A stretch of DNA of 64,000 bases from positions 3,098,001-3,162,000 of the forward strand of contig NZ_CP042239.1 of NCBI RefSeq assembly GCF_007833215.1. The letters are read 5' to 3'. The stretch is from Sphingomonas suaedae (GTDB taxonomy: Bacteria; Pseudomonadota; Alphaproteobacteria; Sphingomonadales; Sphingomonadaceae). Positions within the stretch are counted from its first letter, which is position 1; the number at the start of each line of letters is the position of its first letter. The notes under the pieces are model-generated. The model searched no databases. It was given only the letters and a program-made list of their open reading frames with translations, and was not told the DNA's origin. The position numbers and the translations under genes were made by a program. Of this stretch, positions 2,688-34,346 are shown piece by piece.

Positions 2688-4935
2688 AGCCGATCGGGTT
2701 CAGCGCCACCGCGTCCTGCTTCATCTTCGAGACGATCTGTGCATATTCGCGCTCCATCTCGGCGGTGACGGTCGCGCGCGAATCGGCGAGCGCCGCTTCG
2801 AAATGCGCCATCGTCACCTGGCTGGCGGGCGGACGTTCGCGCAGCGCGGCAAGGCCCGCGCGCCGGGTAACGTCCTCCAGATCGGCGCCGGTGAAGCGTT
2901 CGGTCCGCGCGGCCACGGCGGCAAGATCGACATCGTCGGCGAGCGGCATCTTCTGCGTCTGGATCTTGAGGATGCGCTCGCGCCCCGGCGCATCGGGAAC
3001 GCCGACATAGATCAGTTCGTCCAGCCGCCCGGGCCGCATCAGCGCGGGGTCGATCAGGTTCGGCCGGTTGGTCGCGCCGATCACGACGACCGACTGAAGC
3101 TCCTCCAGCCCGTCCATCTCCGCCAGAATGGTATTGACCACCCGCTCGGTCACCTGTGGCTCGCCCATCCCAGCGCCGCGTGCGGGAACGAGACTGTCGA
3201 GTTCGTCGATAAAGATGACGCAGGGCGCAACCTGACGCGCGCGCGCGAACAGCCGGGCGATCTGCTGCTCGCTCTCGCCATACCATTTGGACAACAGGTC
3301 GCTCGACTTGGTGGCGATGAAATTCGCCTCCGCCTCGCGCGCGACCGCCTTGGCGAGCAACGTCTTGCCGGTGCCGGGCGGGCCGTAGAGCAGGAAGCCC
3401 TTGGCCGGGCGGATACCGAGGCGCCGGAACGCGTCGGGATCGCGCATCGGCAGCTCGACGCCTTCCTTGAGACGCATCTGCGCGTCGTCGAGGCCGCCGA
3501 CATCCTCCCATTTCACGTTCGGCTTCTGCACCATCACCTCGCGCATCGCGCTGGGCTGGACGCGCTTCAGCGCCTCGACGAAATCCTCGCGCGTGACGGC
3601 GAGCGTATCGAGCACTTCGGGCGGGATCGTCTTTTCGCCCAGGTTGAGCCGCGGCATGATCCGCCGCACCGCCTCGATCGCAGCCTCGCGCGCGAGCGCC
3701 GCGATATCCGCGCCGACAAAGCCGAAGGTCGTGCGGGCAAGCTCATCGAGATCGACCCGCTCCTCGATCGGCATACCGCGGGTGTGGATGCCCAAAATCT
3801 CGCGGCGTCCGCGCTCGTCGGGAACGCCAACGATGATCTCGCGGTCGAAGCGGCCGGGGCGGCGCAGCGCTTCGTCGATCGCTTCGGGTCGGTTGGTCGC
3901 GGCGATGATGACGATATTGGCGCGCGCCTCAAGCCCGTCCATCAGCGTCAGCAGCTGCGCGACGAGGCGCTTTTCGGCCTCGCCCGAGACCTGGCCGCGC
4001 TTGGGCGCGATCGAATCGATCTCGTCGATGAAGACGATCGAGGGGGCGTTCTTCGCCGCTTCCTCGAACACGTCGCGCAACCGCTTTTCCGATTCGCCAT
4101 AGGCCGAGCCCATGATCTCGGGGCCGTTGATCAGGAAGAATTGCGCATCCGATTCGTTGGCGACGGCGCGGGCGAGCCGCGTCTTGCCGGTGCCGGGCGG
4201 GCCATGGAGCAGAACCCCCTTGGGCGGATCGACGCCGAGCCGCTGGAACAGCTCGGGATAGCGCAGCGGCAGCTCGACCATCTCGCGCAGCTGGTCGATC
4301 GTCGCGGCCATACCGCCGATATCGTCATAGGTGACGTCGGCGCGGCGCAGTTCGCGCGCTTCCTCGAACTCGTTGCGCAGCTCGATCTCGGTATCGGGAT
4401 CGATATGGACGATCCCCCGCGGGGTCGCCGAGACGACGAGCAGGCGAATCTCCTGGAGCGCATAGGCAGGGGCGCGCAGATGCTGGAGCACATTGGGCGG
4501 CATATCGGCGACGCGCTGCTGCCCCACCGTCGAAATCGTATCGCCCTGGCAGAGCGGGCGGCCGAGAAAGGTGCGTTTCAGCGCATCGCCCGACCCCTCC
4601 AGCCGCAGATCGCGGCGGGCCGGCGCGAACACCACCCGGGTGGCGGGGCGCGATTCGGCCTTGCGGACTTCGACGAAATCGCCCGATCCGACCCCGGCAT
4701 TGGCACGCTGAAGCCCGTCGATGCGGAGCAATTCCAGCCCCTCATCTTCCTGATAGGGAAAGACGGCGCGCGCCGGCGTGGTGCGCTTGCCGATGATCTC
4801 CACGACATCGCCCTGCTGAATTCCCAGATCGGTCATCATTGCGCGGGGCAGATGCGCCAGCCCGCGGCCGCTGTCCTCGGGCCGCGCATTGGCGACCTGG
4901 AGCTTGCGTGTCGGGGCGTCTTCGGTGTCGGCCAT
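2638..4935 (-). CDS. CDC48/VAT-family AAA+ ATPase
   Basis: A 765-residue hexameric unfoldase-type ATPase with the full archaeal VAT / eukaryotic p97 layout. The N-domain (about 1-180) has the double-psi-barrel opening [18 protein letters not shown] domain D1 has Walker A GPPGTGKT at 245-252 and Walker B FIDEID near 302-307. D2 has Walker A at 518-525 and Walker B FIDELD near 575-580. Both modules keep the NRP sensor-1 motif and the GRFD/GRLD arginine region. The family extracts and unfolds proteins for degradation or recycling; the bacterial target is unknown. It stands alone, overlapping the MFS gene at its 3' end. All catalytic motifs look intact. Confidence 0.95.
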
Positions 4936-11848: not shown

Positions 11849-11933
11849 CGGCACCGGCCCGCTCCCCCACCCGGCCACCCATTTCAGAATATCCTGTCGA
11901 TGGGTGGCCGGGTGGGGGAGCGGGCCGGTGCCG
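11849..11933 (+). repeat. 85-bp palindromic repeat, copy 1
   Basis: Perfect 33-bp inverted arms at 11849-11881 and 11901-11933 around a 19-base loop. The arms read inward through CACCGGCCCGCTCCCCC and ACCCGGCCACCCA. It lies between the ybbN start and tRNA-Gly. The asymmetric loop (AGAATA...CTGTCG) gives it plus orientation. Same family as the copies at 17600, 23485, 26280 and 34261. Confidence 0.92.
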
Positions 11934-17599: not shown

Positions 17600-17679
17600 C
17601 GGCACCAGCCCGCTCCCCCACCCGGCCACCCATTCAGGATACGCTGTGGGTGGCCGGGTGGGGGAGCGGGCTGGTGCCG
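17600..17679 (+). repeat. 80-bp palindromic repeat, copy 2
   Basis: Perfect 33-bp arms at 17600-17632 and 17647-17679 with a 14-base loop, lying between two minus-strand genes. Separate small hairpins flank it: GTCCGGC-TAC-GCCGGAC on the left (17582-17598) and GGTTCAG-CTTTG-CTGAACC on the right. Confidence 0.92.
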
Positions 17680-23484: not shown

Positions 23485-23568
23485 GCGGTGCCAGCCCGCT
23501 CCCCCACCCGGCCACCCATAGAATACACTGTCGTTGGGTGGCCGGGTGGGGGAGCGGGCTGGCACCGC
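23485..23568 (+). repeat. 84-bp palindromic repeat, copy 3
   Basis: Perfect 34-bp arms at 23485-23518 and 23535-23568 around TAGAATACACTGTCGT, between two minus-strand genes (enoyl-CoA hydratase start and regulator end). Plus orientation by its loop. The outer pair is inverted to GGTGCC/GGCACC relative to copies 1, 2 and 5. Confidence 0.92.
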
Positions 23569-23589: not shown

Positions 23590-24189
23590 CTAACCGGCAT
23601 CGAGGCAGTAGCCGAGTCCCTTGTGGCTGCGGATCATCGCCGTGCCAAAGGGGCGGTCGAGCTTGGCGCGCAGCGTAGAGACATGGACCGCGACGACATT
23701 GGTTCCCGGGTCGAAGCGCAAGCGCCACACGCCCTTCAGCAGTTCGTCCCGCGTGACGAAACGACCGCGCCGCTCGGCAAGGTAGCGCAACAGCGCATAT
23801 TCGCGTGGCACCAGCGGGATCGGCGTGTCGCCCCGCGTGGCGCTGCGGCCGATCGGATCGATCGTCAGATCGCCGATCCGCAGCGTCTGCGGCACATGGG
23901 TCCGCACACGCGCATCGACCCGCGCGGCAAGCTCGTCGGGATCGACCGGATCGGCGACGGCATCGGCGGCGCCTGCGTCGAGCGCTGCAGACAGTTCGTG
24001 CCGGGAATGGGCGACGGCGATCTGCGGCACCGGACCAGGATCGATCGCGAGTCCGCTGCGCCAGCGGCGGAGGATCGCGGCGACATGGGGCGGAAAGGTC
24101 GGCGGGCCGATCTCCAGTAGGTAGCCACGCGCCCGAACCGCACAGTCAAGCTGCGGTATATCGATTTCGGAGAGAATCACCGGCGCCAC
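23590..24189 (-). CDS. Winged-helix (OmpR-type) regulator with degenerate receiver
   Basis: 199 residues. The C-terminal half is an OmpR/PhoB-type DNA-binding domain (LRIGDLTIDPIGRSATRGDTPIPLVPREYALLRYLAERRGRFVTRDELL in type, recognition helix around NVVAVHVSTLRAKLD, hairpin IRSHKGLGYCL). The N-terminal part looks like a receiver fold that has lost the acidic pocket and the phospho-aspartate, so it is unlikely to be controlled by a histidine kinase. It closes the minus-strand cluster headed by the small peptide gene at 26155, which makes it the probable regulator of that cluster. The start may be GTG 24189 or GTG 24180. Confidence 0.8.
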   Translation of the reverse strand: MAPVILSEIDIPQLDCAVRARGYLLEIGPPTFPPHVAAILRRWRSGLAIDPGPVPQIAVAHSRHELSAALDAGAADAVADPVDPDELAARVDARVRTHVPQTLRIGDLTIDPIGRSATRGDTPIPLVPREYALLRYLAERRGRFVTRDELLKGVWRLRFDPGTNVVAVHVSTLRAKLDRPFGTAMIRSHKGLGYCLDAG

Positions 24190-24258
24190 CGCCCGGTTGT
24201 CGGAGATAGCCCGCGTCTCTGTCTGCCGGAGATGACTCCGAAGTGGCGTAATCGATCG

Positions 24259-25080
24259 CTAACCGATCGCGGAGCGGGCCGGTGCCGCCTGACTGAAACC
24301 GAGTCTCGCTGAGGCGAGCGCCGCCATTGCCGTGGCACGCATCCGCGGATGCGGATGGCGACAGGCGAGATGGTCGATCAGGTCCAGCCCATTGCCCCCG
24401 CCCAGATGCGCGGCAAGCGCGACCAGTCCCTCGGAGGGGGCGGTGGTGAGTCCGGCCGCGATCGTCCCGCGCGCAATATCGAAGCGATATTGATCGATCC
24501 AGGGGCTCGCCGGGTGTTGGCCCAATATGTTGAGCGACACCGAGAAGGCGTCGGGCGGCAGCTGCGCATGGACGTCGCGGCACATGCGGTAGAGCATCAA
24601 CTGTCCCGGCTCCAGCCGCGCCCGACCGACAAAGCGCGGCGCGCGTGCCGGATCGTCGGGCGCGCGCTCATAATAGTCGCTCCAATAGCCGGGCCCCAAA
24701 TAGCCATAGGTGAGGAAGGGGAAATTATGGTCGTGCGGGAAACCGTAAAAGAACGGCGCCTCGCCGCTCGCGCGCACCACGGCATCCTGCTGCGCGGGCC
24801 AGAAATTGGCGCGCAGGACGAAGCGGCCAGCGGGCGGCCGGAGCAGAAAGACCTGCGGGCCATAGCTGTTCGCCCGGGCCTGGTTTGCGCAGCGTGCCTT
24901 GAGCTCCGCGATCGCAAGGTCGGCGAGGAATGTCGGGTTTCGCCCGAGCTGCGCGAGCAACGGGCCGAGCGCGGCAAACGCATCCTCGTCCCGCGGATCG
25001 ACCGTGCTCGAGTCGAGCGCATCGACCAGTTCGTCGAGCGTGATGGCGGGTGCAACGCCTGGATCGATCAGGCGGGGCAT
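24259..25080 (-). CDS. Unrecognised cupin-like / HEAT-like protein (273 aa)
   Basis: No named family recognised. The middle of the protein looks like a metal-binding cupin barrel: FYGFPHDHNFPFLTYGYLGPGYW has His116 and His118 in an HxH pair, with Glu138 shortly after. The second half-motif is LEPGQLMLYRMCRDVHAQL, with His171 as the likely third ligand, then VSLNIL. A short C-terminal helical segment resembles a HEAT repeat (HPHPRMRATAMAALASARLG). It overlaps the previous gene by 13 bases, so translation is coupled. Its last residues (QAAPARSAIG) are encoded by a half-copy of the palindromic repeat. An oxygenase or peptide-modifying role is only inferred. Confidence 0.6.
   Translation of the reverse strand: MPRLIDPGVAPAITLDELVDALDSSTVDPRDEDAFAALGPLLAQLGRNPTFLADLAIAELKARCANQARANSYGPQVFLLRPPAGRFVLRANFWPAQQDAVVRASGEAPFFYGFPHDHNFPFLTYGYLGPGYWSDYYERAPDDPARAPRFVGRARLEPGQLMLYRMCRDVHAQLPPDAFSVSLNILGQHPASPWIDQYRFDIARGTIAAGLTTAPSEGLVALAAHLGGGNGLDLIDHLACRHPHPRMRATAMAALASARLGFSQAAPARSAIG
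24271..24289 (-). repeat. Half-copy of the palindromic repeat inside a gene end
   Basis: GGAGCGGGCCGGTGCCGCC equals one outer arm of the palindrome family. It lies within the last codons of the cupin-like gene that stops at 24259, so the element (or what remains of it) has supplied the C-terminus. Confidence 0.6.
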
Positions 25081-26015
25081 GGCGCTGTCAGCCTCTGGTC
25101 GAGCGTGGCGAGCGTTGCGGCGGCAGCAGCGCGGACCTCGTCATTCGGGTCGGCTGCGGCCATTTCCGCCAGCCTTGGGCGCGCGGCGCGCGCATCGAGC
25201 ATCAGCCATTCGCGCATCGCCGCCCAGCGCTGGTGAAAGGCCGGGTGGCGGCTTTCGCGCTCGAACTGTGTTCCCGCATCGCTTCTGCCGCTTGCGCGCA
25301 GGAAGCTGAGCAGCATTTCCGCACGCGCCGTCCGATCCTCACCACATGACGCGCGGACAAAGGCGCCGTCGCGGGTCGCATATTCGCGCATCAACGGCGC
25401 GGCGCCCCGCTTTGCCGTAAAGGTCAGCGTGACGATATCGCTATGTGCGGCGACGATCAGATGCCCTTCGCAGGGGGATTGCACCAGAATGTCGCCATCC
25501 TCCAGCGACCGGGACGCGAGGGTGCGCGCGGGCTCCGCGGTGCGGGCGCTGAAATCGAACCCGGCGGGGGGCGCGCGCCATCGCCGTATCTCGGCCTGTC
25601 CGCCGCGCACATAGCGGGTGACCGACCACCGGCCCGCGATCACCATTGTGCCGGGCGGCTCCAGTTGCGCGAGCGCCGCAGCGCTGGTCACCGTCGCGGA
25701 AAGAGTCGCCTGCGCACAGTCGGCGATGATGATGCCGGTGCGCAACGCGTCGCGATTGACCCGCAGGCCCGGCGCGAACCAGGGGTCTTTGCGCAGCGCG
25801 TCGATCATCGGAGCGAACAATCGCTCGACCCAGGTCGAATCAGCGAGCAATGCGCGTCCGGCATCGACGATCGCTTCGGGTGTTTCGAGTCCGTCGAACC
25901 GCGCGTCGATCGCGGCACGCGTCGTGCGCGACCAGTCGGTATTGACTGCGGCCGATCGCGCGCGGGCATCAAGGATCGCGGGATAGGCGCCGGGATCGAA
26001 CGGCGCGGGGTTCAC
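25068..26015 (-). CDS. Unrecognised beta-barrel / HEAT-like protein (315 aa)
   Basis: No family recognised. An N-terminal helical part contains ARSAAVNTDWSRTTRAAIDARFDGLE. A beta-rich core of cupin type (LEPPGTMVIAGRWSVTRYVRGG and LEDGDILVQSPCEGHLIVAAHSDIV) follows, then a C-terminal helical tail with a HEAT-like unit (DPNDEVRAAAAATLATLD). The plan resembles the next gene, 24259-25080, so the two may be distant paralogues. The GTG start at 26015 overlaps the stop of the 47-residue peptide gene by 4 bases (GTGA). Frames reaching further upstream run through a repeat and are not real. Function unknown; modification or handling of the peptide is inferred from coupling. Confidence 0.6.
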   Translation of the reverse strand: MNPAPFDPGAYPAILDARARSAAVNTDWSRTTRAAIDARFDGLETPEAIVDAGRALLADSTWVERLFAPMIDALRKDPWFAPGLRVNRDALRTGIIIADCAQATLSATVTSAAALAQLEPPGTMVIAGRWSVTRYVRGGQAEIRRWRAPPAGFDFSARTAEPARTLASRSLEDGDILVQSPCEGHLIVAAHSDIVTLTFTAKRGAAPLMREYATRDGAFVRASCGEDRTARAEMLLSFLRASGRSDAGTQFERESRHPAFHQRWAAMREWLMLDARAARPRLAEMAAADPNDEVRAAAAATLATLDQRLTAPCPA

Positions 26016-26155
26016 GGCGTGTCGTACACCAGCACGACGATCGCCACCATCATCTCGAAAATCTCGTCCCCGGCGACTTCGTTCGAGCGTAACGCGCCAT
26101 GGGTGGCGACTTGCGTCCCAAGGGTGGCGATGTCGGCATGGGCGAGCGTCAGCAT
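26012..26155 (-). CDS. Small peptide gene (47 aa) heading a coupled operon
   Basis: A 47-residue peptide starting MLTLAHADIATLGTQVATHG and ending MMVAIVVLVYDTP. GGGGA lies 7 bases before the ATG, and the stop overlaps the next gene start by 4 bases (GTGA). The leader-like first half is polar and contains NEVAGDEIFE; the last 13 residues are hydrophobic, with one Tyr and a terminal DTP. Small size, first place in the operon and tight coupling to two unrecognised cupin-like genes are what a modified-peptide (RiPP) precursor would show. No known precursor family was recognised. It could instead be a small membrane-active or regulatory peptide. Confidence 0.5.
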   Translation of the reverse strand: MLTLAHADIATLGTQVATHGALRSNEVAGDEIFEMMVAIVVLVYDTP

Positions 26156-26279: not shown

Positions 26280-26357
26280 TGCGCCGGCCCACTCCCCCAC
26301 CCGGCCACCCAACGGCAGTATTCTATGGGTGGCCGGGTGGGGGAGTGGGCCGGCGCA
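26280..26357 (-). repeat. 78-bp palindromic repeat, copy 4 (inverted)
   Basis: Perfect 32-bp arms at 26280-26311 and 26326-26357. Its loop is the reverse complement of the others (read on the minus strand: TAGAATACTGCCGT), so it has the opposite orientation. An A/T change in the arm (CACTCCCCC) is compensated on the other side, which keeps perfect pairing. Confidence 0.92.
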
Positions 26358-34260: not shown

Positions 34261-34346
34261 GGCGGCACCGGCCCGCTCCCCCACCCGGCCACCCATAGAA
34301 TACACTTCCGTTGGGTGGCCGGGTGGGGGAGCGAGCCGGTGCCGCC
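34261..34346 (+). repeat. 86-bp palindromic repeat, copy 5, between infB and rbfA
   Basis: 35-bp arms at 34261-34295 and 34312-34346 with one mismatch (CGAGCC against CGGGCC on the right). It lies inside a conserved translation operon, 26 bases after the infB stop and 28 before the rbfA start. In the transcript it would form a very stable hairpin. Confidence 0.92.

Follow-up and report, generated by a model that had tools for sequence, protein, structure and literature searches.

The window (the whole 64-kb stretch of DNA analysed here) carries a run of four genes on the minus strand. It begins with a precursor-like peptide gene of 47 codons (26012..26155; ATG at 26155, TGA ending at 26012), which has a plausible ribosome binding site on its 5′ side, where the sequence reads AAAAGGGGACCTGCC. 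The stop of this gene overlaps by GTGA with the GTG start, at 26015, of the gene for a 315-aa protein (25068..26015), for which we predict a thiol-dioxygenase-like cupin core and C-terminal HEAT-like helices. The end of this second frame (25068) in turn overlaps by 13 bases with the gene for a 273-aa protein (24259..25080; ATG at 25080), a putative 3-His non-heme metal oxygenase with a helical tail, which is present as a single copy in its own genome. After a gap of 69 bases comes the gene for a 199-aa winged-helix (Trans_reg_C) regulator (23590..24189), a lineage-specific part of the module. All starts and stops and both overlaps were read directly, and the layout is that of the initial annotation.

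A plausible metal centre at His116, His118 and His171 of the 273-aa protein had been suggested earlier. We found the three histidines to be invariant in all of the aligned relatives (26/26, window included), and also in 15/15 members of a wider, overlapping set. Database searches with this protein showed no match in Pfam at E up to 10, CDO_I (PF05995) included, and no match in NCBIfam. A search of solved structures with the family profile gave nothing below E 0.086, and because it gave so little, a fold search was needed. The AlphaFold model has a core like that of thiol (cysteine) dioxygenases followed by a helical tail, and its best structural matches were thiol dioxygenases. The thiol dioxygenase (CDO) family has a second-sphere motif, Ser-x-His-x-Tyr, which we also saw in the CDO-family proteins of related genomes whose sequences were used for a profile alignment. 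In that alignment, which has a probability of just 0.2%, the motif falls on Ser182-x-Asn184-x-Leu186 of the 273-aa protein, which we take as no more than a hint. This putative 3-His non-heme metal oxygenase probably has a chemistry different from that of cysteine dioxygenase.

The 315-aa protein has no histidine at any of the three positions. Comparison of the profiles of the two families related them with a probability of 93.3% (E 2.6e-7), and the AlphaFold model of the 315-aa protein also has a thiol-dioxygenase-like core with a C-terminal helical tail, with thiol dioxygenases among its best structural matches. The two models, the fold searches and the profile comparison all agree with the previous claim that both large proteins share a beta-core and a HEAT-like tail. 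Pfam gave a sub-threshold HEAT match only, NCBIfam gave no match, and the solved structures matched by the family profile were all designed or natural helical repeats (best E 0.00094). As judged from these comparisons, the 315-aa protein is a distant homologue of the 273-aa protein, and the pair consists of a predicted enzyme and a His-less partner.

The initial annotation had noted that its peptide-system idea would fall if the large proteins belonged to a well-characterised family with another role. No such family was matched in Pfam, NCBIfam or PADLOC, and the predicted fold is that of thiol dioxygenases. Five large proteins had no match in PADLOC, which covers anti-phage defence, at E up to 1, and a defence reading was rejected on this ground. 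The matches of Alteromonas proteins to NblB (E 0.0044) and TcmP (E 0.021) were far below the cut-off, at chance level, and were also discarded.

We calculated how often the 273-aa protein occurs in sampled genomes. With a limited number of candidates scored per genome and the window's own genome included in each count, it occurred in 106 of the 298 genomes sampled from Sphingomonadaceae, the family of the window (about a third), in 38 of 147 genomes from the order, all within that family, in 2 of 240 from the class, both again in the family, and, for the phylum, in 15 of 398, including two (G512, G677) from outside the family. Another profile gave 16/398 in the phylum sample, the extra genome being G762 (E 6.5e-4). 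Among 8,000 scored candidates from the protein database there were at least 3,173 relatives, a number that rose to at least 3,728 (E 0.001) with a wider profile. Relatives occur in named strains, for example Sphingomonas tagetis MG17 and Sphingomonas sp. Leaf33, and 72,556 plasmid records gave a single match, on CP013927 of Alteromonas stellipolaris (L139). Among the 120 matches listed, the relatives, where named, are often called "transposase" or "hypothetical protein", and the former name stands in public records (P0002, P0015 and others). It is likely to be a misannotation that is being propagated; the transposase reading, which has database names as its only basis, was rejected. Three divergent modules (L076, L077, L079) have a G+C content below that of their surroundings (0.36 in the L079 region, 0.54 in the locus), and the genes near them are presumably yidC and engB.

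The linkage of the peptide gene to the pair was explored in 100 distinct frames of the 273-aa family taken from the loci, the Alteromonas peptides (L139) not being among them. A peptide profile, trained on most of the sequences scored with it, found a small frame upstream of the pair in 97 of the 100 modules, with E < 0.01 in 90 of these. The other seven (E > 0.01; L030, L076, L079, L081, L082, L084 and the second module of L085) were accepted by position and shape. As for the three modules missed by the profile, a 40-aa frame was found by the gene caller in L083, the contig end is reached in L090, and inspection of the region upstream of the module in L012 showed no peptide frame. The gene directly upstream of the L012 module (2963-3760) is one that we take to encode a Dam-like DNA methylase. 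Against the circularity of the profile, we built profiles from 45 of the 91 clearer peptides and held out 55 modules, in five splits in which close relatives may fall in both halves. Between 44 and 46 of the 55 held-out modules were matched upstream on the coding strand, compared with 0/55 on the opposite strand and 1/55 downstream. The peptide gene is thus conserved beside the two large genes in other sphingomonads, as the initial annotation proposed to check.

The window peptide is 80% identical to those of L001 and L002, and the comparison of its gene with that of L001 gave dS 0.80 and dN 0.14. In all 27 chosen pairs, which share sequences, dN/dS was below 1 (pooled pS 0.43, pN 0.13). L099 and L100 differ by 11 synonymous and 0 nonsynonymous changes, and L117 and L120 by 7 and 0. 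The constraint was weak in two pairs, L088/L095 (dS 0.083, dN 0.063, dN/dS about 0.76) and L098/L104 (dS 0.42, dN 0.28, dN/dS about 0.66). By these substitution counts, the peptide frame is under purifying selection on its amino acids, and the earlier doubt that the 47-codon frame might lack conservation or such selection is answered. The GTGA overlap in the window could also be explained if the small frame served only to couple or attenuate the translation of the two genes that follow. However, the pairs with 11 versus 0 and 7 versus 0 changes show constraint on amino acids, and in L018, L020, L024 and L139 the peptide frame stops about 45-80 bases before the next gene, which makes this explanation extremely improbable.

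The peptides have a recognisable composition. In many lineages the N-terminal part is of the type I-D-x-x-x-L-P-x-L, and [LIVM]P-x-[LIMV] occurs within the first 30 residues of 76 of the 97 peptides. It is followed by a variable middle, with Gly and then Ser/Thr/Ala/Gly within residues 13-40 (92/97). The last 22 residues include V in 96/97 and I in 94/97, and the mean share of V+I+L is 37% in the last 20 residues versus 29% in the first 20. No Cys is present in 74 of the 97, and one subset (e.g., L071, L021, L072) has GG-x-x-Cys. Because so many peptides are without Cys, the reaction for which the fold is best known, here the oxidation of a Cys thiol in the peptide, was rejected as the general one. 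The peptides tested matched no family in Pfam or NCBIfam, the window peptide having no Pfam match at E up to 10; matches of single peptides to DUF4535 (E 0.34), TUNAR (E 0.45) and YoaJ (E 0.12) were far below the cut-off and are attributed to chance.

We surveyed 73 module loci (L139 included) and the window with 12 exporter and sigma-factor queries at E 1e-5. The loci are unequal in length, and only the exporter types of these queries are detected. Exporter genes adjoin the module in 4 of the 73 loci, three of which (L085, L013, L081) belong to the window's own family, and this is what a peptide-product system predicts. On the Alteromonas plasmid (L139), the series opens with a Yip1-domain gene, an HlyD-type fusion protein, an ABC ATPase and a MacB/FtsX permease. 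Next come two peptide frames, one of 38 codons and one of 41, both preceded by a purine-rich stretch, and then the partner, which carries HEAT_2, and the 3-His protein; a second ABC ATPase and an ABC-2 permease close the series. In L085, two modules with three peptide frames between them are accompanied by an ECF sigma factor and HlyD-ABC-FtsX, and L013 has a similar set. L081 has a C39-peptidase ABC exporter and HlyD beside the module, and its C39 peptidase domain is the only leader protease noted. In L070 and L072 an ABC ATPase lies some kilobases from the module. At this threshold, none of the 12 queries matched anywhere in the 64-kb window. An ECF-type sigma gene and a small following gene precede some modules (L013 2457-2963, L071 4666-5187, L073, L085 4144-4647), the assignment being made by Pfam for L085 and by similarity for L013, L071 and L073.

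These results bear on the main rival explanation, in which the peptide is a permanent small subunit, an allosteric regulator or a membrane anchor that stays unmodified while the pair acts on a small molecule. Within the largest group, both ends of the peptide are conserved, which would suit a subunit. For 69 of the 73 module loci the survey showed no adjacent exporter, and enzymes that act on free thiols are among the closest folds. However, the C-terminal half of the peptide varies strongly between lineages, the clusters of L139 and L085 have two and three peptide frames, respectively, and exporters do adjoin four modules. On balance, we consider an unmodified small subunit of a small-molecule enzyme to be unlikely.

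The chromosomal site of the module was compared among relatives. One set of downstream neighbours is common to 28 loci, and a crotonase-like neighbour is common to 13 others. In 8 of 12 fetched relatives the site is empty: the thioesterase and crotonase-like genes, which in the window lie on either side of the module, face each other with about 95-330 bases between the matches. Among the other four, L169 does carry the module, the gap in L170 is wider and holds another frame, and no crotonase match was found in L174 or L176. Since the module is present or absent whole at one site, it was gained or lost as a unit; at one empty site (L167, 5117-5341) a 75-aa remnant of the winged-helix gene is left, gone from the others, which points to loss. 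Two divergent thioesterase genes (named 4HBT from Pfam) adjoin the module in 42 and 40 clustered loci. A functional link to them was rejected because relatives without the module keep both at the same site; thus, they are bystanders. Crotonase, thiolase, rimP, nusA and hemC are names that we assigned from the sequences.

Patchy presence and empty sites would also fit if the peptide were membrane-active (bacteriocin- or toxin-like) and the two partners did not modify it but neutralised it, chaperoned it or conferred immunity. The hydrophobic C-terminal stretch of the peptide and, in L139, the exporter genes with the extra ABC/ABC2 pair accord with this. However, the invariant 3-His site in one partner suggests catalysis, and the downstream neighbours common to 28 and to 13 loci suggest stable chromosomal residence. 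We therefore regard such a peptide as quite improbable.

The small, conserved peptide gene is linked to the genes of two homologues whose modelled fold is thiol-dioxygenase-like, and one of the two has an invariant 3-His site. The best explanation of the locus is a RiPP-like peptide-modification module, to which we give a probability of about 60%. Four lines of evidence together lead to this reading: the peptide gene is linked to the pair, its amino acids are constrained, the 3-His protein is accompanied by a His-less twin, and exporter genes are adjacent in four loci. Counted against it are the small-molecule enzymes that share the fold, the small number of loci with exporters, the leader protease noted in L081 only, the 74/97 peptides that lack Cys, the 7/97 weak peptide assignments and the two pairs with weak constraint. 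The resemblance to a RiPP operon in the initial annotation is partly supported, by the linkage, the constraint, the absence of a characterised family and the exporters of four relatives, but not by the window copy itself, beside which no exporter was found.

In a RiPP-like module, the 315-aa and 273-aa proteins may form a heterodimer, in which binding of the peptide's conserved N-terminal segment would fall to the His-less partner and the helical tails. With Fe(II) bound, the 3-His protein would activate O2 and oxidise the Val/Ile-rich C-terminal part by hydroxylation, desaturation or a cross-link. In some lineages MacB-type or C39-peptidase ABC exporters may then release the product, and in the window's lineage it may stay in the cell or envelope or leave by shared exporters. 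A more specific proposal, which we make tentatively and at somewhat less than even odds, is a new RiPP class, found in about one-third of the sampled family genomes and on an Alteromonas plasmid, in which an iron enzyme of the thiol-dioxygenase fold acts together with its His-less twin to oxidise unactivated C-H bonds in peptides rich in Val/Ile.

Thiol dioxygenases (cysteine, 3-mercaptopropionate and mercaptosuccinate dioxygenase, plant cysteine oxidases and ADO) have the same cupin fold and H-x-H ... H layout. In contrast to them, the 273-aa protein has no CDO_I match, and the present system has an additional helical tail, a His-less homologous partner and a linked peptide gene. RiPP clusters with cupin-type enzymes are known, and the cupin passages of PMC12257519 describe the PbsQ cluster, where a short precursor gene likewise accompanies a cupin-like metal enzyme, related to a JmjC-domain protein that hydroxylates ornithine. 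Compared with PbsQ as described there, the enzyme here has a thiol-dioxygenase-like fold and is accompanied by a homologue that lacks the histidines, and the tested peptides have no Pfam or NCBIfam match. Parts of PMC13252029 describe TMcin, a Staphylococcus aureus product with a transmembrane-helix precursor and a disulfide, which resembles the present peptides in being small, hydrophobic and possibly membrane-active; neither "cupin" nor "dioxygenase" occurs in that text. We did not recognise the present system in the cupin passages of PMC12257519, PMC9426513 and PMC10783134, and searches of a library of open-licence papers listed nothing that was recognised as this combination of peptide and enzyme pair. 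If the RiPP-like reading is true, it would add to peptide modification an enzyme family that mining with known families would miss, because neither the enzyme core nor the tested peptides were matched by any curated model, and the thiol-dioxygenase fold would gain a non-thiol peptide substrate. As the family is large and present in named strains, the proposal is directly testable.

The winged-helix protein, which may regulate the operon, matched Trans_reg_C (PF00486) with E 3.4e-21 and showed no receiver domain (Response_reg) match at Pfam E up to 10. Response-regulator models of NCBIfam covered it only from about residue 37 onwards, and in the 25 matches shown every score was far below the cut-off of its model. 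A relative follows the pair in 12 of 13 loci (L001-L012, not L013), and no such gene was seen beside the module in many other lineages. Hence the four-gene cluster of the initial annotation holds for the window, and the regulator does not belong to all modules. A cluster of 18 loci with a winged-helix relative downstream includes L071, where it is an ordinary response regulator beside a histidine kinase; because at least one such gene lies inside it, this count was not used.

A palindromic repeat with CTCCCCCACCCGGCCACCCA arms is found on both sides of the module (23499-23554 and 26292-26345), and also at 11862-11920, 17613-17666 and 34276-34331. It is a REP-like intergenic element, with 5 copies in the 64-kb window and 29 in the genome.
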